The notes beneath the pieces were generated by a model. It was not told the origin of the DNA. It made no database searches and worked only from the letters and a program-made list of their open reading frames with translations. The position numbers were made by a program, and so were the translations under genes. Shown here piece by piece: positions 14,146 to 25,558 of a stretch of 64,000 bases of DNA; the stretch's first letter is position 1; each line of letters starts with the position of its first letter. The stretch is taken from assembly GCF_014279655.1 (NCBI RefSeq), contig NZ_CP047946.1, forward strand, positions 1,550,001 through 1,614,000, in the 5' to 3' direction. This stretch comes from Synechococcus sp. ROS8604. Lineage in GTDB: Bacteria > Cyanobacteriota > Cyanobacteriia > PCC-6307 > Cyanobiaceae.

Positions 14146-15453
14146 CTATGACCCCAGGATTGCCGTGCACTCAAGTCTTTCTTGGGAGGCATCGCGTCGC
14201 TGCAAACGCTGGCTGATGACCCTGGCGAGATAACGCGCATCATCGCTAACTCCACAGAAGCGCCCTGAGCCCCAGGTATGGAGCCATGGCAAACCAATGA
14301 AATACAAGCCGGCGCTTTTGGTGACCCCGCGATCATGGGCAGGGACACCACTCCCATCAAAAACGGGCGCATCAATCCAGCTGAAATCGCTGCGATATCC
14401 CGTACACCAGATCACAGCAGCAAGCGGCTGTGTCTTCAAATCAATCCCAGGGTCTGCCATGGGTAAGGGTTGCCAACAGGGCGAATACGCCGGCTCAACG
14501 GGTGCATCGATACCTTCTTGTTCGATCCAGCTATCAATGCTGGATCGAATGCGGCAATACACCGAATCGGCTTGATCGAGATTGGTGGCCAGGTCATCAG
14601 CGAAACCGATGTATTCGCTGAAAATGGTCGACAGCCGGCCATGCAAATGCATGCCTTCCATGGCCCGATGACGGAGATCAATCTCACGTCCGCCGTCTCG
14701 CCCAGTGAGGTAGTGATTGGTCTTGTCTCGTACGGATCGTGGATCAGCGTGATCGCTGATCGGCATGGCGTAATAGCCCATGCGGTCCAACCAATCCACA
14801 ACATCTTTGCCGCGATAGCGGCGGGGAGATCGTGGCGCTCGACCCACACTTAGATGCACCGTACGTCCTGCAAGGTGCAGGTCTTCAGCGATCTGGCTGC
14901 CCGATTGGCCATTGCCGACGACCAGCACTGGACCATCTGGGAGTGCCTCAGGGTTTTGGTAAGACCGAGCATCCAATTGCTGCACAGCAGCTGGTAGACG
15001 TTCGGCGAATGGATGACGACGGGGAATGTGATAACCCCCAGTGGCAACGATGACGTGATCCGCCTCGATGACTCCTTCACTAGTGTCGAGCCGATAGCCG
15101 TTCACGATGGGTGTCAATCGGGTGACGGACACTCCCTCGCGGAGATCAGGATTGACATGCTGAGCGAAGCGTTGCAGATAATCCACAATCGACGCCTTGC
15201 CCATGAAGCCGTCGGGCTGATCTCCTTTGTAGGGGAAGTCGGGTAAACGACATTGCCAGTTCGGCGTTACAAGGCAGAAGGAATCCCAGCGTTGTTGATC
15301 CCAAGCATGTGCCACACGGTTTTTTTCAAGAACAAGCGGTCGTATCCCTTGTTGCTGCAGCTCATAGCTGGCCGACAAGCCAGCTTGGCCGGCACCGATA
15401 ACCACTACGGAGCGGCGCTGCGGTGAGGACTTGGATTCCAAAATCACTTGCAT
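14146..15453 (-). CDS. nitH: Nit1C FAD-dependent oxidoreductase (NitH-type monooxygenase)
   Basis: 435 residues. N-terminal FAD-binding GxGxxG (VVIGAGQAGLSASYELQQQG, residues 19-38) and a second NADPH-binding motif VVGNGQSGSQIAEDL (about 177-191), the layout of flavin monooxygenases and of the MSMEG_0569-type protein of Nit1C clusters. It is divergent from the rest of the cluster with a 172-bp shared promoter region. In Pseudomonas, Nit1C clusters support growth on cyanide as nitrogen source; the flavoprotein's exact reaction is unsettled. Confidence 0.85.
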   Translation of the reverse strand: MQVILESKSSPQRRSVVVIGAGQAGLSASYELQQQGIRPLVLEKNRVAHAWDQQRWDSFCLVTPNWQCRLPDFPYKGDQPDGFMGKASIVDYLQRFAQHVNPDLREGVSVTRLTPIVNGYRLDTSEGVIEADHVIVATGGYHIPRRHPFAERLPAAVQQLDARSYQNPEALPDGPVLVVGNGQSGSQIAEDLHLAGRTVHLSVGRAPRSPRRYRGKDVVDWLDRMGYYAMPISDHADPRSVRDKTNHYLTGRDGGREIDLRHRAMEGMHLHGRLSTIFSEYIGFADDLATNLDQADSVYCRIRSSIDSWIEQEGIDAPVEPAYSPCWQPLPMADPGIDLKTQPLAAVIWCTGYRSDFSWIDAPVFDGSGVPAHDRGVTKSAGLYFIGLPWLHTWGSGRFCGVSDDARYLARVISQRLQRRDASQERLECTAILGS

Positions 15454-15625: not shown

Positions 15626-16108
15626 ATGCCTGCTGTAGATCGTCCAGCCAACCAGCCCGGCGACTTCCTTGTTGATTACGAGGAAAAAGTTTTTCCTGAT
15701 GTCAAAGCCGAGCCTGGAGAGAAAGCTCTTGTCACATTCCATACCGTGGCCTTCGAGGGCTCCATTGGGCTAGTCAATTTGCTCCAAGCCAGTCGTCTGA
15801 TCAATAAGGGCTTTGAAACCTCTGTTCTGCTCTACGGTCCTGGCGTCACCCTGGGGGTGATGCGCGGCTTCCCCAAGCTTGGTGATGCAGCTTTTGATGG
15901 TCATCTGAACTTCAATGCCCGCCTCCAAAAATTCATGGATCAGGGCGGAAAAGTCTATGCCTGTCGGTTTGCCTTGCAGGCCCTGTATGGCCATGGTGAA
16001 AAAGCATTGATGCCTGGAATCACACCCGTGAATCCACTTGATGTTCTCGACATTGTCTTGATGCACCGTAAAGAAAACGCCTTCATTCTTGATACCTGGA
16101 CGCTCTGA
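15626..16108 (+). CDS. nitB: Nit1C conserved protein (MSMEG_0572/Sll0783 family)
   Basis: 160 residues, cytosolic, begins [20 protein letters not shown]. It matches the nitrogen-starvation-response family first gene of Nit1C clusters. The central part ([20 protein letters not shown], then [16 protein letters not shown] and [14 protein letters not shown]) looks like a DsrE-like alpha/beta fold. Disruption of sll0783 in Synechocystis is known to affect PHB accumulation under nitrogen starvation. It is 22 bp upstream of the nitrilase gene and surely co-transcribed. Confidence 0.85.
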
Positions 16109-16130
16109 TTATTTCCGGAGATTCTCCACT

Positions 16131-17129
16131 GTGACCATAGTCAAAGTTGCTGCTGCGCAGATTCGTCCCGTGCTGTTCAGCCTGGATGGATCTCTCCAAA
16201 AGGTGCTGGATGCCATAGCCAAAGCCGCAGTTGAGGGTGTGGAGCTGATCGTTTTTCCTGAAACGTTTCTGCCCTATTACCCTTATTTTTCATTTGTCGA
16301 ACCTCCGGTCTTGATGGGGCGATCCCATCTGGCTTTGTACGAGCAGGCCGTGGTGGTTCCAGGCCCTGTCACCGATGCCGTTGCTGCTGCTGCCCGTCAG
16401 TACGGCATGCAGGTTTTGTTGGGCGTCAACGAGCGTGATGGTGGAACGCTTTACAACACACAGCTGTTGTTCAACAGTTGCGGCGAGCTGGTTCTCAAGC
16501 GGCGAAAAATCACACCGACTTATCACGAGCGAATGGTCTGGGGCCAAGGGGACGGCTCAGGCCTGAAGGTGGTTCCGACGCCATTGGCTCGGATTGGAGC
16601 CCTGGCCTGTTGGGAGCATTACAACCCACTTGCTCGTTTCGCATTGATGGCTCAAGGGGAGGAGATCCACTGCGCGCAGTTCCCCGGTTCGCTGGTGGGA
16701 CCGATCTTCAGCGAACAGACCGCCGTCACCATGCGTCATCACGCTCTGGAAGCCGGGTGTTTCGTGATCTGTTCCACCGGCTGGCTCGACCCCGATGACT
16801 ATGCATCAATTACGCCTGAAACGAGTTTGCATAAGGCGTTTCAAGGGGGGTGTCACACCGCTGTGATCAGCCCTGAAGGCCGTTATCTGGCTGGTCCCCT
16901 GCCTGATGGTGAAGGGATGGCGATCGCCGATCTGGATCTTGCACTGATCACCAAGCGCAAACGGATGATGGACAGCGTCGGCCATTACAGCCGTCCCGAA
17001 CTGCTGTCTCTACACATCAACAGCACGCCTGCGGTTCCCTTTCAAGACATGACCACATCATCAGTTCCGTTGATTCCAGCCTCGGCTCCTGATGGCCTGT
17101 CATCGATGGAGACGCTGAACCATGTCTGA
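16131..17129 (+). CDS. nitC: Nit1C nitrilase
   Basis: 332 residues from GTG 16131, chosen because GGAG lies 10 bp upstream and the protein then starts directly with the nitrilase fold ([13 protein letters not shown]). Catalytic triad: Glu in [11 protein letters not shown], Lys in [12 protein letters not shown], Cys in [23 protein letters not shown] is typical of nitrilases rather than amidases. Family members hydrolyse nitriles to acids and ammonia; in cyanide-degrading Pseudomonas NitC acts on 2-aminonitriles formed from cyanide. Its stop overlaps the start of nitD. Confidence 0.92.
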
Positions 17130-18210
17130 TCTTGGTCGCCTGGTCACTGAACTGCAGGTGCATGGGGTTCGGGTTGACTCCTTAAAGGGAAACCCTGGAC
17201 GACGGGGAGGTGCAGGTCCCTCCGATCACCGTGCCTTGGATCTCAACGGCACCACCGTGATGGTGCCCGTCTACAACGATGCTTCCGCATCCTCTCCCTA
17301 CAAGCTTGCATCCTCTGGTGATGTTCTTGCGATCGAGGGACCCGAGCAACCATGGTCTGCAGAGATCACAACCCCACGAGAGCCAGAGTTTTATGGCTTG
17401 AGCACAGCCGACGGAATCTCCTATCGATCGATTGCCTTGCTGCACAGCAAGGATGTGCTGGCGACCACGCTGCTGCAGACCTGCATCCGCTTCCGAGATC
17501 GATCCCAGTCGTGTCAGTTCTGCGCTATTGAACAGTCGATCGACGATGGTGCCTTGATTCGCAAAACTCCCGATCAGGTCGCGGAGGTGGCAGAAGCTGC
17601 CGTCCGATTGGACGGGATCAAGCAGTTGGTCATGACCACCGGAACGCCCAATAGTGATGATCGCGGTGCTCGTGTGATGGCTGAAACCGCTGAAGCGGTC
17701 AAACGTCGGGTCGATATCCCAATCCAGGGCCAATGTGAACCGCCGGAGGATCCGAGCTGGTACCAACGCATGAAGGAGTCTGGAATCAACAGTCTCGGTA
17801 TCCACCTCGAGGTGGTTGAGCCTGATGTACGGCGTCGGATCCTTCCTGGGAAATCGGAGCTCAGTCTTGAGCGCTACTACGAAGCATTCGCCGATGCCGT
17901 TGCGGTCTTCGGTCGCGGTGAAGTATCGACCTATCTGTTGGCCGGACTGGGTGACAGCAAAGAGGCCTTGCTGGCCTGCAGTCGTCGCCTGATTGAACTC
18001 GGGGTCTACCCCTTTGTGGTGCCCTTTGTTCCGATCTCTGGAACACCACTTGAGAACCATCCATCACCAGACAGCTCTTTCATGGTTGAGGTTTATCAGG
18101 GTATTGCTGCGATGCTGAAAGCGGGGGATCTGCGCTCCGAGCAGATGTCCGCCGGTTGTGCCAAATGCGGCGCTTGCTCGGCGCTCTCTCTGTTCGAGAA
18201 GGCTTCGTAG
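17122..18210 (+). CDS. nitD: Nit1C radical SAM protein (MSMEG_0568 family)
   Basis: 362 residues, start overlapping nitC by 8 bp. The cluster-binding motif is the unusual C-x9-C-x2-C ([14 protein letters not shown], about residues 114-127) instead of CxxxCxxC, as in this radical SAM subgroup. A second Cys group at the C-terminus ([10 protein letters not shown]) could hold an auxiliary iron-sulphur site. The middle carries a TIM-barrel core with TTGTPNSDD and [12 protein letters not shown]. Reaction unknown. It is fixed in the order nitB-C-D-E-F. Confidence 0.9.
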
Positions 18211-18212
18211 TC

Positions 18213-18881
18213 ATGGTTTCGTGTCTTGATCCCAGCAGCTGCGGCATTGGCCGCAGCATCAGCTCCGCACCACATCTGTTCACGCCGTCTGTGCGCAGTG
18301 GCATCGGCATCGATGCCGATGATTTCCGCCTATCCCCCACGGCATGTTCCGAGCGTTTCACCTTTCATCTTCTTCGCCCTGATTCGTCACTGATTCAGGG
18401 ATATTGGTCGTTGCGGCGCGGCATCTTCTGCAGTGAGCAGCATGTATTTGAAGACTCAGATCGTGATGAGCTCGATGCGATCGCCTATCCAATTGCAGCC
18501 TTGCATCACAGCTCAGATCCAGAGCATGACGATGCTGCTGAAACCGATGTGATCGGCGTGGTTCGGATTGTGGAGACGGAACCGCGACTTTGGTACGGCG
18601 GTCGTCTCGGTGTGCATTCCGACTTCCGATGTCATAACCAAATTGGGAAGGGATTGATCTGGAAAGCTGTAACCAGTGCCAATGGTTGGGGATGTGATCG
18701 TTTCCTCGCCACGGTGCAGATTCAAAATGTCCGCTTTTTCCGCCGCTTGCATTGGACCTCGATTGATGAGCTTGAGATCCGGGGCATCCGCCACCACCTG
18801 ATGCAAGCGGATCTCGACTATTACCTGCCCTCACATGAGCATCGGCCAGTCGCCTCGCATCATCCAACAGCTGTGGCGTGA
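18213..18881 (+). CDS. nitE: Nit1C GNAT-type N-acyltransferase
   Basis: 222 residues from ATG 18213, 2 bp after the nitD stop. GNAT core with GVVRIVETEPRLWYGGRLGV and an acetyl-CoA loop region VHSDFRCHNQIGKGLIWKAV (Q/R-x-x-G-x-G/A type), then RFLATVQIQNVRFFRRLHW. Family MSMEG_0567/Sll0786 N-terminal type. In other bacteria the acyltransferase and AIR-synthase parts of this pathway can be fused; here they are separate genes overlapping by 4 bp, which supports a joint function. Confidence 0.85.
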   Translation: MVSCLDPSSCGIGRSISSAPHLFTPSVRSGIGIDADDFRLSPTACSERFTFHLLRPDSSLIQGYWSLRRGIFCSEQHVFEDSDRDELDAIAYPIAALHHSSDPEHDDAAETDVIGVVRIVETEPRLWYGGRLGVHSDFRCHNQIGKGLIWKAVTSANGWGCDRFLATVQIQNVRFFRRLHWTSIDELEIRGIRHHLMQADLDYYLPSHEHRPVASHHPTAVA

Positions 18882-19855
18882 ATAACTTGGGCCTTGTGAA
18901 CGCCTTGAGCAAGTCCAGTGGCCTATGGGCGAAGAGCGATATTCGCTCGGCCGCTGCCACCTTTTGCCATCAGCCTTTTCCGCAACTGGGATTGGCCGGG
19001 ATGCTTGGTGATGACGCTGCTGTGCTGCCCGCTCAGGAAGGTCAACTGTTGCTTGCCTGTGAGGGGATTCATCCCGGACTTGTTGAAGAGGACCCATGGT
19101 TTGCCGGCTGGAGTGGGGTCTTGGTCAACCTCAGCGACATCGCCGCCATGGGTGGCCGTCCTCTGGCTCTGGTGAACAGTGTCTGGAGCACCGGCGCGGA
19201 AGGCATGAGTGCCTTGATGGAGGGAATGCAATTCGCATGCGATCGCTTTGGTGTGCCAATGGTGGGTGGTCACTCCAACCAGCAGAGCTCCTACCAGGCG
19301 CTCTCTGTTTCCGTTCTAGGAGTGGCGGATGGTCCCATTCTGTCCGCTCGCGCAGCACGTCCCGGCGATGAGCTTTGGATGCTGGTGAATCAAGCCGGAG
19401 GCTTTTATCGCCACTACCCCTTCTGGGATGCAGCAACCCATGCCCCTCCCGAGCGTCTTCGTAGCCAGCTCGCACTGCTGCCTGTTCTGGCCGCAGCACA
19501 ACATATACACGCCGCCAAGGACATCAGCATGGGAGGAATCACTGGCACCGCGGTGATGTTTGCCGAAGCCTGCGGGCATCAACTGATCCTTGATCTGGAT
19601 GCTGTGGAAGGTCCTGGTGACGTCCTCAACGAGACCTGGCTTACTTGCTTTCCGAGCTTTGGATACCTCCTGGCTGTTGATCCAACGCGCACTCCAGCCC
19701 TTGAGCAGATGATGGCGAGCGATCCGACACTGATTTGCTGCCGAATTGGAGATTTTGCGGAGGGTGATTGCAGTGTGCTGTTGCAGCACTCCGGGGCGAT
19801 ACATCGCTTCTGGGATGGCAGTCATGCGCTCACTGGTTTTGGCTGTGTTCGATGA
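18878..19855 (+). CDS. nitF: Nit1C AIR synthase-like protein
   Basis: 325 residues, GTG start overlapping nitE (GTGA). Belongs to the PurM/SelD/HypE fold: GMLGDDAAVLP (ATP/Mg site), VLVNLSDIAAMGGRPLAL (the classic N.SDIAAMGG motif) and KDISMGGITGTAVMFAEAC. Such enzymes activate amides, thioacids or formyl groups with ATP. In Nit1C the substrate is unknown. Confidence 0.88.
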   Translation: MNNLGLVNALSKSSGLWAKSDIRSAAATFCHQPFPQLGLAGMLGDDAAVLPAQEGQLLLACEGIHPGLVEEDPWFAGWSGVLVNLSDIAAMGGRPLALVNSVWSTGAEGMSALMEGMQFACDRFGVPMVGGHSNQQSSYQALSVSVLGVADGPILSARAARPGDELWMLVNQAGGFYRHYPFWDAATHAPPERLRSQLALLPVLAAAQHIHAAKDISMGGITGTAVMFAEACGHQLILDLDAVEGPGDVLNETWLTCFPSFGYLLAVDPTRTPALEQMMASDPTLICCRIGDFAEGDCSVLLQHSGAIHRFWDGSHALTGFGCVR

Positions 19856-19907: not shown

Positions 19908-20189
19908 ATGCCTGAAGTTCGTTTTCAACTGGAGTGGCCAGACGGACAAATCAGCACGTTGTACTCACCTTCCACAGTGATCCTTGATTATTTCCAACCC
20001 GGTGATTCCTTATTGGTTTCTGAGCTTGAGTCGCGTGGCGTTGAAGCCCTTCGCGAAGCATCCGAACGCGTTCGCACCCGTTATGGCTTTGCCTGCACTC
20101 GCACCAATGAGGAGGAATCTCAGCTGCGTGAATGGATCTCCCGCTACAGCTCCGATGACACCGTTCGTGTGACTGGACCACTGACCTAA
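19908..20189 (+). CDS. nitG: Nit1C small conserved protein (MSMEG_0570 family)
   Basis: 93 residues beginning [20 protein letters not shown], the recognisable start of this family (W-P-D-G and a following YSPSTVI). It contains [17 protein letters not shown] and a final RVTGPLT. No known fold-based function. It lies 52 bp after nitF, keeping the canonical cluster order. Confidence 0.85.
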
Positions 20190-20217: not shown

Positions 20218-20685
20218 ATGTCTGGAAAACCCCCTTTCCCCCCGTTCACCCTTGAAACCGCTCGCCAGAAAGCGCGCATGGCGGAAAATGCTTGGAACAG
20301 CAAAGATGCCGTCAAGGTTTCACTCGCCTACACCGAAGACAGCCTTTGGCGGAACCGCAGTGAATTCATTCAAGGTCGAGCTGAAATCTTGGCGTTCCTA
20401 CAGCGCAAATGGGCCAAGGAACTGGACTACAAATTGATCAAGGAGGTCTGGGCCTGCAGCGACAACCGAATCGCTGTTCGCTTCCAGTACGAGTGGCGCA
20501 ACGCCGAAAGCCAGTGGTTCCGCGCCCATGGCAATGAAAACTGGGAATTCGCCGAGAACGGCTTGATGTCCCGGCGTGAAGCCAGCATCAACGATGTGCC
20601 GATCGGGGAGAGCGACCGTCTTTTCACCTGGAGTGATGGCCCCAGGCCCGATGATTTCCCAGGGTTGACGGAGCTGGGTCTCTGA
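20218..20685 (+). CDS. DUF1348 NTF2-like protein
   Basis: 155 residues. NTF2-like fold: N-terminal helix [19 protein letters not shown], a strand pair with [19 protein letters not shown], then [27 protein letters not shown] and a [12 protein letters not shown] end. DUF1348 proteins are often annotated as nuclear transport factor 2 family and usually bind small molecules. It is 28 bp downstream of nitG and 4 bp before the DUF3050 gene, so it belongs to the Nit1C transcript here. Confidence 0.85.
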
Positions 20686-20689
20686 GCGG

Positions 20690-21478
20690 ATGGAGCTGAA
20701 TCACCACCCGCTGCCGCAGGCGATCCTCACGATGGCGGATCTCCAGCTGTTCATGGAACACCACGTGTTTGCGGTGTGGGATTTCATGCTGCTGCTCAAG
20801 GCTTTGCAGCAGCAACTGGCTCCATGCGGTGTGCCCTGGGTACCGCCTTCCCACCCGCAGATTGCGGGCTTGATCAACACCCTTGTAGGAGAAGAGGAAT
20901 GTGATGTGCTGCCCGACAGCCTCGGAGGACCGCTGCATCTGTCCCATTTCGCTATCTACCGCCGTGCAATGGGGGAAATCGGGGCTGACACCACAGTGAT
21001 CGATGCAGTCCTCCAAAAAGCTGCAGGCGGCGATCTGGCCAGCGCACTTCTCCACGAAGGGATTCCTGCGCCCTCCGCGCGGTTCATGCGCAGAACGCAG
21101 GCGTTGATCGCAGACGGTGAAATCCATGCCCTGGCAACGGCATTTGCCTATGGCCGGGAGCTGTTGGTTCCGGATTTATTTCGAGGTCTTCTTGATCGCC
21201 TGAGCGTGTTGGCGCTGCCATGTCCAACGTTGCGCTGGTACCTCGAACGTCACATTGCCCTTGATGGCGAAAGCCATGGACCTCTAGCGGAATCGATGGT
21301 TCTCACTCTTGCTGGAACCGATCCTGCTGCTCATGCACAGGTTCAATCAGTTCGTCAAAAGGTGCACGCCGATCGGGCTGCGTTCTGGGATGCAATTAAC
21401 ACCAAGCTTCGGGAGAGGACGCAGATCAATCGATCCAGCAGCGAACCTTCACAAATACTCTGTTCTGGTCTGACCTAA
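20690..21478 (+). CDS. DUF3050, haem-oxygenase-like fold protein
   Basis: 262 residues beginning MELNHHPLPQAILTMADLQL. All-helical with His/Glu positions where haem-oxygenase-like diiron oxidases (HDO type) carry metal ligands: FMEHHVFAVWDFM near the N-terminus, a central EIHALATAFAYGRELLVPDL, and ERHIALDGESHGPLAESM late. DUF3050 belongs to that fold family; metal binding here is my inference. As the last gene of the extended Nit1C operon, it could be an oxygenase acting on the cluster's nitrogenous intermediate. Confidence 0.8.
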   Translation: MELNHHPLPQAILTMADLQLFMEHHVFAVWDFMLLLKALQQQLAPCGVPWVPPSHPQIAGLINTLVGEEECDVLPDSLGGPLHLSHFAIYRRAMGEIGADTTVIDAVLQKAAGGDLASALLHEGIPAPSARFMRRTQALIADGEIHALATAFAYGRELLVPDLFRGLLDRLSVLALPCPTLRWYLERHIALDGESHGPLAESMVLTLAGTDPAAHAQVQSVRQKVHADRAAFWDAINTKLRERTQINRSSSEPSQILCSGLT

Positions 21479-21852: not shown

Positions 21853-22386
21853 ATGAACGCTTCGCGTTTTGCGCATCTGTGTTCAGCTGCCGTGCGACAG
21901 AGCTTGGTTGGAGCCTTTGTAGTCGTCTCGCTGCTTTCAGCGAGTCAACCGCTTGAGGCGCATGGTGATGTGAAAGGGGATGCTGCGATGCCCGTCAACA
22001 GTGGGGCGACCGGGCCTCAGATGACGGTGTATCGATCGGCGAGTTGCGGTTGCTGTACGTCATGGGGATCCCACATCGTTTCAGCGGGATACCGCATTGA
22101 GGACCATGTCACCGAGGACATGGATGCCGTGAAGAAAGCGCGTGGCATCAGCCCACAACAAGCTTCTTGCCATACCGCGGTTGTGGAGGGGTATGTGATC
22201 GAAGGGCATGTGCCCGCTTCTGCGATTCAGCGTCTTTTGACAGAACGGCCCAATATCCGAGGTCTGGCAGTTCCAGGGATGCCAATGGGTTCTCCCGGGA
22301 TGGAGGTGGCTGGCGTCGAGGCTGAACGTTTCGAGGTGCTTGCCATTGCCCATGACGGAACAACCTCCGTCTTCGCGCGTTATTAA
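21853..22386 (+). CDS. DUF411 metal-binding protein, copy 1
   Basis: 177 residues from ATG 21853; the same frame is open further upstream, but only through the repeat. Signal peptide (SLVGAFVVVSLLSASQPLEA), then the DUF411 thioredoxin-like domain: YRSASCGCCTSWGSHI (CxCC), HVTEDMDAVKKARG, SCHTAVVEGYVIEGHVP, and GLAVPGMPMGSPGME. DUF411 proteins are periplasmic and linked to copper resistance; Cys and the conserved His are likely ligands. A second copy lies at 26303. Confidence 0.88.
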   Translation: MNASRFAHLCSAAVRQSLVGAFVVVSLLSASQPLEAHGDVKGDAAMPVNSGATGPQMTVYRSASCGCCTSWGSHIVSAGYRIEDHVTEDMDAVKKARGISPQQASCHTAVVEGYVIEGHVPASAIQRLLTERPNIRGLAVPGMPMGSPGMEVAGVEAERFEVLAIAHDGTTSVFARY

Positions 22387-22420
22387 GCGGTTTCAGGGAG
22401 ACCGCTTCGGGGAACGGGGG

Positions 22421-22690
22421 TCATCGCGATGGTTTTAACAGCATCGCTGCACCCGAAACTGTGACGATGACGGTGAGCCCACCCAAGAGCATTGGGTAGA
22501 CGGGCTGAAGATTCAGAACACCGAAATTCCCGGTGTGGATCTTCAGCAGCCAGAAGGCATCAATGTCTTGCTCCAAGAGCAAGCTGTAGAGAGATCCCGT
22601 GCCTGCGGTGATCAGCAACGGAACAGCGGCGATTGGAACCAGCCAACGGTGAACTTTGCGTGCTCGCCGTGAAAGCGGTCGTTGGTTCAT
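22421..22690 (-). CDS. Small PepSY-TM-like membrane protein, copy 2
   Basis: 89 residues, two membrane helices (WLVPIAAVPLLITAGTGSLY and MLLGGLTVIVTVSGAAMLL). About three quarters identical by eye to the protein at 11615. Start overlaps the stop of the DUF3721 gene (ATGA), last gene of the DUF305-DUF3721-this operon driven from the MerR operator at 23659-23689. Confidence 0.72.
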   Translation of the reverse strand: MNQRPLSRRARKVHRWLVPIAAVPLLITAGTGSLYSLLLEQDIDAFWLLKIHTGNFGVLNLQPVYPMLLGGLTVIVTVSGAAMLLKPSR

Positions 22691-22938
22691 TGCTTGCGAA
22701 GTTGGCGGTGGAGTTTACGCTCATCTGCGCAGGGCATCCACTTTCCGTTGTTCTGATGCAGCGTATTGCAACCAATCTCACTGGCACGTTGTTGCGCGTC
22801 AGCTTTGGATTGGTAGATGCCTTTGCTGTGAGCATGGCTGGCCATGGGATGGACAACGAAAGCAGCGACGAGGGCGAATGAGATGGAGATCCATCCCATC
22901 ATCGTTGTGGTGAAGGCATTAAAAGTGATTGCTTTCAC
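22687..22938 (-). CDS. DUF3721 small secreted protein, copy 2
   Basis: 83 residues from GTG 22938, or 71 from the internal ATG (MMGWISISFALVAAF). Signal peptide ending near ASHAHS, then SKADAQQRASEIGCNTLHQN and GKWMPCADERKLHRQL, with the same two Cys as copy 1. GTG 22938 overlaps the DUF305 stop, which favours that start and a coupled operon. Function unknown; the operon links it to metal stress. Confidence 0.75.
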   Translation of the reverse strand: MKAITFNAFTTTMMGWISISFALVAAFVVHPMASHAHSKGIYQSKADAQQRASEIGCNTLHQNNGKWMPCADERKLHRQLRKQ

Positions 22939-23637
22939 AGCGCGAAAAGGCCATCAAATTTGTAGTAGTCCGGCTTATTCAGTCCTCCGCTTTGCAGCAT
23001 CTTGCGGAGTTCGATGATCTCTTTGCGCTGGGCGACGATGATCTCGCGCGCCAGGCGAAGGACGGTGGGGTTGGTGGAGTTTTGCCGAGCCTCATGGGCC
23101 ATCTGAAGTGCGCCTCCATGGTGCTCAATCATTCCCTCTAAGAACCACTGCACCCTGTTGTCGCGCGTTGGCTTCGTTCCCGACATGCGCATCGCGGCAA
23201 TCACATCAGGACTCATGCGCACCAGATCTGCCATGGAGTTGGGGTCCCCGTTAGGGCGCAATGCCACGGGATAAACCGGTGCATCCGGATACCAGGCTTT
23301 GCGCCATTGGCGCATCGCCTTGATCTCACGGGCCTGCTCGTTCCAGATGCTGTTTGCCAACGCCCCCACCCCAGGGGCGCCGATGTTGAAGACGTACTCA
23401 CTCATCCGCAACGCCCCGGTGTGATGCTCGACCATGCCATCGATAAAGCGCAGGTCGTAGGTGCTGCCTGCTGGTCCCATGCCATGGGCATGGTGCTGAT
23501 GGTTGCCGGAATGGGGGGGGTGCAGCCTCTTTCGTTTTTTCAGGTGCTGGGTGATGCATCCCATGGTCCATTTGGGCCAATGCGACTTGAGGGGGCAGTG
23601 CCGAGATGGCGGCCAGAGCAAAAGCGATTCGACGCAT
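22935..23637 (-). pseudogene. DUF305 protein broken by a C8 frameshift (or switchable)
   Basis: A signal peptide (MRRIAFALAAISALPPQVALAQ, given here as the start at 23637) and a His/Met leader MDHGMHHPAPEKTKEAAP lie in one frame. The DUF305 domain (YDLRFIDGMVEHHTGALRM, then VQWFLEGMIEHHGGALQMAH) lies in another. They meet at a run of eight C on the coding strand (G8 at 23513-23520). Removing one C joins them perfectly (EAAPPHSGNHQHHAHGMGP). Intact DUF305 proteins of copper islands bind metal through the paired EHH/MVEHH motifs. The break could be a sequencing error, a real mutation or slipped-strand phase variation. Confidence 0.75.
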
Positions 23638-23658
23638 GGAAAGAACAATCACGTCGCT

Positions 23659-23689
23659 ATTGTGGAGTCTCCAGTAAGTGGAGAGTCAA
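23659..23689 (-). promoter_or_regulatory. MerR-type operator/promoter for the DUF305 operon
   Basis: Minus strand: -35 TTGACT (23689-23684), 19-bp spacer and -10 CACAAT (23664-23659). Within the spacer is an inverted repeat ACTCTCCA-CTTAC-TGGAGACT (7 of 8 pairs). A 19-bp spacer with a centred palindrome is the signature of promoters activated by MerR-type regulators. It matches the site at 26747-26777 almost exactly. The divergent merR gene begins inside it. Confidence 0.75.
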
Positions 23690-24076
23690 CCCTTCGTGCC
23701 TAAAGCGCCTGGCGATCTACTCAAGATTGGAGTTGTCTCTGCAAGAAGCAACATTTCGGTGAAAACGATTCGTTTTTATTGTGATGAAGGTTTATTGCTG
23801 CCAGTATCACGTACCGATTCCAGATATCGATTGTTTGATGAGTCTGTTTTTGACGATCTTAGTCTAATCCTTCGTCTGCGGGCCATGGACTTGCCTCTTG
23901 ATTTGGTGAAAAAAGTAATTCAGGCACAGCGATCTGGAATCTGTACTTGCAGTGATCTCAAGACCACGATGCGCGAAAAATTAAGCGAGATTCATGAGCG
24001 CCTGGATGAATTGAAGGTGCTGGAGACTGAGATCAAAACGATGTTGAACACCTGGGAGCGCTGCGGCGGCCGTTGA
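23678..24076 (+). CDS. MerR-family metal-responsive regulator
   Basis: 132 residues from GTG 23678; GTG 23696 is an alternative clear of the operator. N-terminal winged helix with ARSNISVKTIRFYCDEGLLL and SRYRLFDESVFDDLSLILRL, coiled-coil dimerisation helix and a Cys-bearing metal-binding end (GICTCSD and a terminal ERCGGR). It is placed between the DUF305 operon and the MCO operon, both of which have matching operators, so it is the likely activator. Its last 39 bp are part of a perfect 73-bp repeat also found at 34643. Confidence 0.85.
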   Translation: MESQPFVPKAPGDLLKIGVVSARSNISVKTIRFYCDEGLLLPVSRTDSRYRLFDESVFDDLSLILRLRAMDLPLDLVKKVIQAQRSGICTCSDLKTTMREKLSEIHERLDELKVLETEIKTMLNTWERCGGR

Positions 24077-24110
24077 TGCGTTGCGCGATCAGCGCAGTGC
24101 TCAGGCTTCG
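24038..24110 (+). repeat. 73-bp direct repeat, left copy
   Basis: 73 bp identical to 34643-34715. It covers the merR 3' end (from ACGATGTTGAACACCTGGG), the 24-bp merR/MCO gap and the last 10 bp of the convergent multicopper oxidase gene (TCAGGCTTCG). Upstream of it the two merR sequences are only moderately similar, so the identity starts abruptly, as expected at a recombination joint. Confidence 0.85.
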
Positions 24111-25558
24111 ATCAAGATGTTGCCCATCATGCCGAGCTCCTCGTGATCGAGGATGTGGCAGTGATACACGCTCTTGCCAGCAAAGTCGCTGAAGCGGGTG
24201 CGCACGCGCACGGTTTCGCCAGGGCGCACCAGCACCACATCCCGCCAGGCCCGGTAGGGCTCAGGCCTGCCATTGCGGCTGATCACCTGCATCGGATTCA
24301 CATGCAGATGGAAGGGGTGATCCATCACGCCTGTGTTCAGCAGCTCCCAGTCCTCTGTGTCTCCCAATTGCACGCGCGTGTCAATGCGCCCATGGTTGTA
24401 GCTCTGGCCGTTGATCAAAAAGGCCATGCCCATGCCTGGTGCCATGCCGTGATTCATCACAAATCGGCGCGTACGCAGCGGGCTGGGGAGCTCCTCCACC
24501 GCTAAGAGCTGCTGCGGCAGAGGCTGCGGCGCTACAACGCCATTGGTGCTCACCGTTGCGATGACATCAGCTTGTTCCTGGCCAGACACCGCTCTCCCCA
24601 TACCCATGCCCATACCCATGCCCATACCCATGCCGCCCATCATTGGGCGCCCCAGGCGCCTGTAGGGGAGGTTGTTCAAGCGAAACCGACCACCTTCGGG
24701 AGCCACCTGCACCAACACATCGGCACGCTCGCCGGGCACCAGCAGCAACTCCTGCAACGGCAGTGGTTGCTCCAGTGCACCACCATCAGTGGCAATCAGA
24801 TGCATGGTGTGACCCTCCAGCGCCAGTCGCCAGAAGCGGGCATTGGAGGCGTTGAGAAGGCGTAGGCGCAGCAAGCCGCCGGCTGCAACCTGCAGCTCGG
24901 GCTTCACCTGGCCGTTCACGCTCAGAATCGAGCCTTCTCGGCCAAGCATCACACCAGAACCGGAGCGCTGGTTGGCGGCTGGAAGATCCTTGAGCACAAG
25001 CACTTCTTCCTGGGCCGCCTGCACTTCAGGGATGCGATCGAGATCGCCTCTCACCAGCAGCGCACCACCCAGGCCACCAAACACCTGGTCAGCCACCGTT
25101 CCATGGTGATGGGGGTGGTAGTAGAAGAGGCCCGCCGGGTGATTGTCCGGCAAGGAGAAGCTGTAGCTCTGTCGCTGGCCAGGAGCAACCCTCAGGAACA
25201 CATTGTCGGCTGCTCCGCTGGGTGGAATGTGCAGGCCGTGGTAGTGCAGATTCGTTGGCTGAGTCAGGCGGTTGTGCAGCTGGATCCGCACCGCATCACC
25301 AGGCTGCAGTTCAAGCTGGGGGCCAGGGAGTAAGCCGTTGTAGGTGAGTGCCCGTCCTGATGTGCCAGGGATGCTGATGGACGTTTCCTGCGCTACCAGA
25401 TCCAGCTCCAGCAGGCCAGCTTGAGAGCGCACTGGCGACGTCGCCGCCGCGTTGATGCTCCTCCGTGGATCTGCGTCCCAGCCATGGCGCAGAGCCGCGA
25501 CTGAGGCTGCTGCAGTGCCACCGGCTGCCAGGGCGAGAAAGGAGCGCCGGCTGATCAC
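24101..25558 (-). CDS. Multicopper oxidase with Tat signal (CopA/CueO-type)
   Basis: 485 residues. Tat signal MISRRSFLALAAGG. Three cupredoxin domains with all copper sites: HYHGLH (type 2/3), YYHPHHHG, a C-terminal DHPFHLHVNPM and the type-1 block YHCHILDHEELGMMG. A Met-rich segment (about residues 305-318, GMGMGMGMGMGM) comes from a 12-bp tandem repeat at about 24595-24640 and probably binds Cu(I). Such enzymes oxidise Cu(I) to Cu(II) in the periplasm. It is last in the DUF411-Grx/MauE-MCO operon (4-bp overlap with the upstream gene). Confidence 0.93.
   Translation of the reverse strand: MISRRSFLALAAGGTAAASVAALRHGWDADPRRSINAAATSPVRSQAGLLELDLVAQETSISIPGTSGRALTYNGLLPGPQLELQPGDAVRIQLHNRLTQPTNLHYHGLHIPPSGAADNVFLRVAPGQRQSYSFSLPDNHPAGLFYYHPHHHGTVADQVFGGLGGALLVRGDLDRIPEVQAAQEEVLVLKDLPAANQRSGSGVMLGREGSILSVNGQVKPELQVAAGGLLRLRLLNASNARFWRLALEGHTMHLIATDGGALEQPLPLQELLLVPGERADVLVQVAPEGGRFRLNNLPYRRLGRPMMGGMGMGMGMGMGMGRAVSGQEQADVIATVSTNGVVAPQPLPQQLLAVEELPSPLRTRRFVMNHGMAPGMGMAFLINGQSYNHGRIDTRVQLGDTEDWELLNTGVMDHPFHLHVNPMQVISRNGRPEPYRAWRDVVLVRPGETVRVRTRFSDFAGKSVYHCHILDHEELGMMGNILIEA

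Follow-up and report, generated by a model that had tools for sequence, protein, structure and literature searches.

A candidate accessory module of Nit1C: the NTF2-like (DUF1348) and DUF3050 genes downstream of nitG in Synechococcus sp. ROS8604

Background

Why are genes for an NTF2-like protein (DUF1348) and a DUF3050 protein placed directly behind nitG in the Nit1C cluster of the cyanobacterium Synechococcus sp. ROS8604, and what might their products do there? To our knowledge, the role of most Nit1C proteins is not settled. It was suggested that Nit1C could allow the majority of marine Synechococcus cells to exploit nitriles or cyanide where waters are warm and iron-replete (PMC10119275; for this and all other papers given by PMC number, statements refer to the parts available to us).

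Organization of the extended Nit1C cluster

The genome of strain ROS8604 (G000) is a single contig of 2.88 Mb and is 99.97% complete; the window analysed here is a stretch of 64,000 nucleotides, and positions are counted from its first letter. All seven Nit1C families (nitB, C, D, E, F, G and H), known as nitHBCDEFG from cyanobacteria and Pseudomonas, were found in one place with scores above the curated NCBIfam cut-offs. The nitH gene, coding for an MSMEG_0569-family flavin-dependent oxidoreductase (14146..15453, minus strand; TIGR04046, 644 bits, cut-off 498), is divergent from a plus-strand run that begins with nitB (MSMEG_0572/Sll0783-family protein, 15626..16108; TIGR04044, 273 bits, cut-off 110), nitC (Nit6803-family nitrilase, 16089..17129; TIGR04048, 574 bits, cut-off 503), and nitD (radical SAM protein, 17122..18210; TIGR04043, 559 bits, cut-off 304). 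It continues with nitE (GNAT N-acetyltransferase, 18156..18881; TIGR04045, 213 bits, cut-off 68), whose start is that of the open reading frame as listed and may actually lie further 3', nitF (AIR-synthase-like protein, 18878..19855; TIGR04049, 427 bits, cut-off 321), and nitG (MSMEG_0570-family small protein, 19908..20189; TIGR04042, 112.5 bits, cut-off 79.85). Unlike the seven-gene clusters, the run is trailed by a DUF1348 gene, here called ntf2 (20218..20685, plus strand; PF07080, E 4.7e-63, 211.4 bits, cut-off 22.1), and by a DUF3050 gene coding for a predicted HamA-family haem-oxygenase-like dimetal oxidase (20690..21478, plus strand; PF11251, E 4.5e-70, 236.4 bits, cut-off 22.2, with positions 1-233 of the 233 profile positions covered). 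The coordinates confirm the spacings given in the initial annotation, namely 28 bp from nitG to ntf2 and 4 bp from ntf2 to the DUF3050 gene, all three genes being on the plus strand. Their G+C contents (56.6% for ntf2, 57.2% for the DUF3050 gene) are within the 51.1-58.2% spanned by the nit genes. Among named clusters, that of Synechococcus sp. AG-670-B23 is nearest, with a DUF3050 protein 75% identical.

Promoter and terminator scans of the cluster gave nothing beyond chance. The NtcA-type motif GTA-N8-TAC does not occur in its exact form in the cluster; one site with a single mismatch is located in the nitH-nitB gap, where 0.26 are expected. A DUF411 gene (21853-22386, profile match) lies downstream of the DUF3050 gene and is followed by genes that by eye appear to be copper-handling (window positions 21853-25558), among them a multicopper-oxidase-like open reading frame (24101-25558).

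The initial annotation had regarded Nit1C as typically ending at nitG, with nitH kept separate. This does not always hold: the three clusters opened on proteobacterial plasmids (L211-L213) have nitH after nitG and, behind it, genes that vary from cluster to cluster. At E <= 1e-60, NitC-type nitrilases were matched in 530 plasmid records, with Klebsiella accounting for 373, and in the three records opened, the annotation table of which is incomplete, neither DUF1348 nor DUF3050 was annotated beside NitC. The model of NitG itself is confident (pLDDT 93.1), and nothing in the PDB matched it significantly (Foldseek E 0.42 and Z 4.3 at best), which neither points to a function nor indicates a new fold.

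Predicted fold and metal ligands of the DUF3050 protein

A structure model of the DUF3050 protein, computed from 13 sequences, reached a mean pLDDT of 90.9. Its best PDB match is HamA (9vwb; Foldseek E 3.8e-13, Z 28.7, rmsd 2.0 over 232 residues; 37-38% sequence identity), followed by HrmI (Z 19.6), CADD (Z 19.0), and UndA (Z 18.4). With these and other haem-oxygenase-like dimetal oxidases (HDOs) such as SznF, the protein has in common a pattern of three histidines and three carboxylates; of the 114 aligned rows, 113 have all of the expected ligands E69, H86, E157, H188, D192, and H196, and one (L072) has E and P at the last two positions. The alignment takes in the window protein and HamA twice (9vwb and L214), while L181, a copy of L085, was left out. 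In the window protein the last histidine is found at D+4 (HxxxDxxxH), whereas SznF has D315 and H318 (PMC11705231). HamA shares with it not only the fold and the six ligands but also H25, Y90, and Y184.

The model, the PDB matches and the ligand set support the initial assignment to the haem-oxygenase-like fold and to the diiron-type oxidases, and the protein is predicted to be a haem-oxygenase-like dimetal oxidase of the HamA/MgoB/PvfA family. From fold and conservation, the six residues probably converge on one metal site. The N-terminal EHH motif, proposed initially as part of the ligand set, is not among these six: H24 is present in 62 of the 114 rows only and is ruled out as a ligand, and H25, although found in 113 rows, lies outside the six. 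H25 may be a second-sphere or substrate-binding residue.

Distribution and phylogeny of DUF3050

Co-occurrence of the two genes in Nit1C clusters, raised as a question by the initial annotation, extends beyond strain ROS8604. In a draw of 121 genomes of the family, PF11251 was detected in eight, in all of which a DUF1348 gene is adjacent; DUF1348 occurs in 17 genomes, and its overlap with DUF3050 corresponds to a Fisher p of 2.7e-8, kinship being ignored. NitC exceeded its cut-off in 20 genomes, seven of which also have DUF3050 (Fisher p 8.8e-6, kinship again ignored). The full nitBCDEFG-ntf2-DUF3050 layout is present in five of the eight (G000, G112, G045, G023, and G069). In G108, the ntf2-DUF3050 pair is on the opposite strand at a distance of about 3.7 kb; G076 carries nitG-ntf2-DUF3050 and nitHBCDEF on different contigs; and G054 has kept the pair, with NitC not over the cut-off and NitG unmatched. 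Conversely, the Nit1C clusters of G102 and G072 contain ntf2 and lack DUF3050, and the NitC stretches of G118 and G103 stop ahead of nitG, so that their tails are outside the sequence examined. The same nine genes recur in two named genomes (L079 and L080); Ca. Regnicoccus frigidus MAG-AL1 also has them on its Nit1C contig, going by a figure legend in PMC9716671 (figure 8). The pair is not discussed in the available text of that paper.

The bond between DUF3050 and NitC does not appear to be a tight one, since 13 of the 20 NitC genomes lack DUF3050, and since G054 as well as G174 have DUF3050 without a NitC over the cut-off. The latter genome, which is 99% complete, contains a ntf2-nitG-DUF3050 run and belongs to a draw of 244 genomes of the phylum, where DUF3050 was found in ten genomes, nitG in 16, and both in three (p 0.021). 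On a wider scale, DUF3050 is mostly found elsewhere: no ntf2 match was detected in the surroundings of 77 of the best 80 named DUF3050 loci (out of at least 588), the three positive loci belonging to two cyanobacteria and to a gammaproteobacterial MAG (L085). In the class of L085, DUF3050 occurs in 20 of 274 genomes, and ntf2 is located within 1.5 kb in two of these, L085's own genome and G409. In the G409 locus, ntf2 is intact, and the DUF3050 gene nearby is reduced to a broken remnant (L234:9970-10226).

In a tree calculated with a quick method from 66 of 115 rows, ten DUF3050 proteins, nine from Nit1C genomes and that of G054, form one clade (SH-aLRT 97, starred). Its sister is L085 (support 94, not starred), and the HamA group stands apart. 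The surroundings of L085 encode a DUF1348 protein, a cyanate lyase, nitrile-hydratase-type subunits, which from their split order we take to be a thiocyanate hydrolase, and an ABC transporter whose binding protein is of the NMT1 type. The DUF3050 protein of G174 is placed elsewhere in the tree. A separate recruitment of it to ntf2-nitG is not claimed, as the p values of the AU test fall on either side of 0.05 (0.051 with L085, 0.041 without).

The DUF1348 protein as a partner of nit and cyn genes

Among solved chains, the DUF1348 protein matched 2imj alone at E <= 0.01 (E 4.4e-63, residues 4-155), an entry deposited as a hypothetical protein and presumably identical to PFL_3262. NTF2-like enzymes include dehydratases, isomerases, and hydrolases (PMC4608573). 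A literature search for DUF1348 turned up work on a Cercospora protein only, and no link of NTF2 to cyanase or to DUF3050 appeared in the titles and abstract openings surveyed, most subscription journals being outside the scope of that survey.

Within the family draw, NitC exceeds its cut-off in 13 of the 17 DUF1348 genomes, compared with 20 of 121 overall; put the other way, 13 of the 20 NitC genomes possess DUF1348 (p 1.5e-9). In three family genomes without DUF3050 (G035, G067, and G077), the same NTF2-like protein is encoded next to cyanase, and its position was therefore compared across the phylum draw. DUF1348 was detected in 36 of these 244 genomes (three by weak partial matches) and cyanase in 61; cynS is present somewhere in the genome in 31 of the 36, as compared to 61 of 244 overall. 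Within 5 kb of the DUF1348 gene, cynS is found in 11 genomes and nitG in five, i.e., in 16 of 36, where uniform placement would lead to an expectation of 0.14 copies. These 16 genomes, which include one with a partial DUF1348 match (G241) and one with a frameshifted copy (G045), span seven families (f1, f6, f12, f13, f14, f20, and f23).

The point of insertion differs between genomes: ntf2 lies between nitC and nitD in G134, between nitF and nitG in G239, between an ABC-ATPase-like gene and cynS in G228, G237, and G176, and after cynS in G178, G203, G316, and G320, while ntf2 and cynS are on opposite strands in G067 and G322. An NTF2 tree, calculated from 47 chosen rows with a quick method, resolved neither the nit-labelled nor the cyn-labelled proteins as one clade, and its starred branches force at least four changes of each label (the nit label takes in G054, which has no Nit1C, and G174, which has nitG alone). 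The label changes and the differing insertion places are as expected from repeated joining. Examples of linked loci are L280, L282, L286, L297, L301, L304, L305, and L307. In G045, ntf2 was matched in two pieces in different frames (L049:5394-5838), a frameshift that may be real or due to a sequencing error.

The association has its limits. Both cynS and nitG are absent within 5 kb in 20 of the 36 DUF1348 genomes of the phylum draw; the ntf2 genes of G005, G090, and G113, the products of which are 57-61% identical to that of the window, have no nit or cyn match in 15 kb, and that of G059 has none in 12 kb. Most cyanase genes occur without ntf2, as only three of the 30 best-scoring cynS loci have it within 1.5 kb. 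Seven of 268 DUF1348 plasmid records were opened; these had no annotated cyanase or Nit1C and presented other contexts. Nevertheless, the NTF2-like protein is a more general partner than DUF3050, being encoded in cyanase operons as well, a point missed by the initial annotation. We infer that it is a recurrent partner of nitrogen scavenging from nitriles and cyanate, to which DUF3050 has been added as a lineage-specific oxidase.

Proposed function of the two proteins

The explanation we prefer, to which we give about an even chance, is that ntf2 and the DUF3050 gene form an accessory Nit1C module for scavenging nitrogen from compounds with a carbon-nitrogen triple bond (nitriles or cyanide, and cyanate). 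The DUF1348 protein would probably be an enzyme with an acid-base pocket, turning over a reactive adduct derived from cyanide or cyanate and thus dealing with a reactive species that arises in both nitrile and cyanate use. The DUF3050 protein, added in some lineages, would be an O2-activating dimetal oxidase of the HamA family; conceivably, it oxidises the same nitrogen-bearing substrate or its product, by N-oxygenation or oxidative cleavage. Substrate and reaction of the pair are guesses, the firm parts being the gene linkage and the predicted fold. The initial annotation is thereby supported as to the lengthened gene run, the type of oxidase, and its presence in further genomes, while its idea that the oxidase would act on the product of NitC-NitF, or yield a new small molecule, stays a conjecture. 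That a pocket-protein gene has repeatedly joined operons for nitrile use as well as operons for cyanate use points to a common step that has so far escaped study, and a HamA-type oxidase in Nit1C would widen a young enzyme family from specialised metabolism to nitrogen nutrition. One could go further and picture the pair as an O2-dependent route that starts from cyanide, or from an intermediate derived from a nitrile, ends in cyanate or a carbamoyl product, and so links Nit1C with cyanase, with DUF3050 as a dimetal "cyanide oxygenase" of an undescribed kind and the NTF2-like protein handling the shared reactive intermediate. This is a long shot with very little probability in our view, because G045 has the nine genes and no cyanase match.

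A rival reading is a role in small-molecule tailoring, in which Nit1C would make a nitrogen-rich metabolite, such as a signal or a metallophore, and DUF3050 would N-oxygenate it or assist in N-N bond formation as proposed for HamA. MgoB was placed in DUF3050 and in the haem-oxygenase-like superfamily (PMC3298696), DUF3050 was modelled on CADD with a potential di-iron centre (PMC4520260), and HamA, the predicted haem-oxygenase-like enzyme of the fragin/valdiazen (ham) cluster, was named as the counterpart of MgoB and of PvfA from the pvf cluster (PMC11659414). Since a hamA mutant fed with dihydrosydnone N-oxide made fragin and valdiazen (PMC11659414), HamA probably acts upstream of this compound, and a review counts HamA and/or HamE among the putative enzymes of N-N bond formation (PMC11705231). 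Extra genes of other kinds, e.g., for a glycosyltransferase or an AMP-binding protein, in the proteobacterial plasmid Nit1C clusters also fit with tailoring. However, HamA was called non-essential for the hydroxylamine intermediates (PMC11659414), and an mgoB insertion mutant still produced mangotoxin at a somewhat lower level, with the authors' caveat that part of the gene may remain active (PMC3298696). An NRPS and an AurF-like N-oxygenase, which would be expected alongside in an operon of the mgo/pvf/ham type, were both missing from the ten genes scanned around the DUF3050 gene of strain ROS8604, where NTF2 and Nit1C take their place. The clade of Nit1C-linked DUF3050 proteins is separate from the HamA group, and the occurrence of NTF2 with cyanase in genomes devoid of DUF3050 points to catabolism. 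We therefore consider tailoring rather unlikely.

Alternatively, the pair might be protective, detoxifying what the use of cyanide or cyanate leaves behind (adducts formed by carbamoylation or cyanation, or reactive oxygen) without adding to nitrogen assimilation. The fungal DUF1348 protein 71cR raised the cercosporin resistance of Neurospora in 11 of 27 transformants, but disruption of 71cR in its own host left resistance unchanged (PMC4608573). Likewise, DtpC, another haem-oxygenase-like protein, limits peroxide in dried Acinetobacter, but is not termed DUF3050 in the part of PMC13232832 at hand. In 16 of the 80 loci, DUF3050 is immediately preceded by a gene on the same strand (e.g., L158:9218-9874) that by eye resembles a methionine sulfoxide reductase gene, which would suit protection, whereas characterised HDOs are tied mainly to fatty- or amino-acid conversions; protection, too, appears rather unlikely. 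It is also conceivable that nitrogen-stress genes merely gather in variable islands and share no common pathway. The patchy presence of the genes, the distant pair of G108, the split contigs of G076, and the opposite strands of ntf2 and cynS in G067 and G322 would agree with such loose neighbourhood. The adjacency of the pair in all eight family genomes and the position of ntf2 on the coding strand inside nit and cyn runs of several families, against the low number of copies expected by chance, argue against it and make it, in our judgement, improbable.

Other genomic contexts of DUF3050

Clustering of the open frames around the 80 DUF3050 loci did not reveal, by eye, a common pathway, many of the clusters consisting of antisense frames or housekeeping genes. 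Of 33 DUF3050 plasmid records, five were opened; Nit1C is absent from the flanks in the four that are annotated there, the fifth (B. cenocepacia) being unannotated in this region. Plasmids of Burkholderia glumae and Robbsia (L209 and L215) share a run of DUF3050, hypothetical, SDR, CoF/F390 synthetase-like, hypothetical, and MFS transporter genes, possibly a further DUF3050 biosynthetic cluster. On a plasmid of Mesorhizobium huakuii (L210), DUF3050 is accompanied by genes for two radical SAM proteins, an alanine racemase, a TldD-related protein, and a cytochrome P450. Finally, in G112 the genes convergent to DUF3050 (L048:25-4858) are by eye hypA/hypB-like and accompanied by an ABC transporter, and perhaps represent a nitrogen-scavenging operon.
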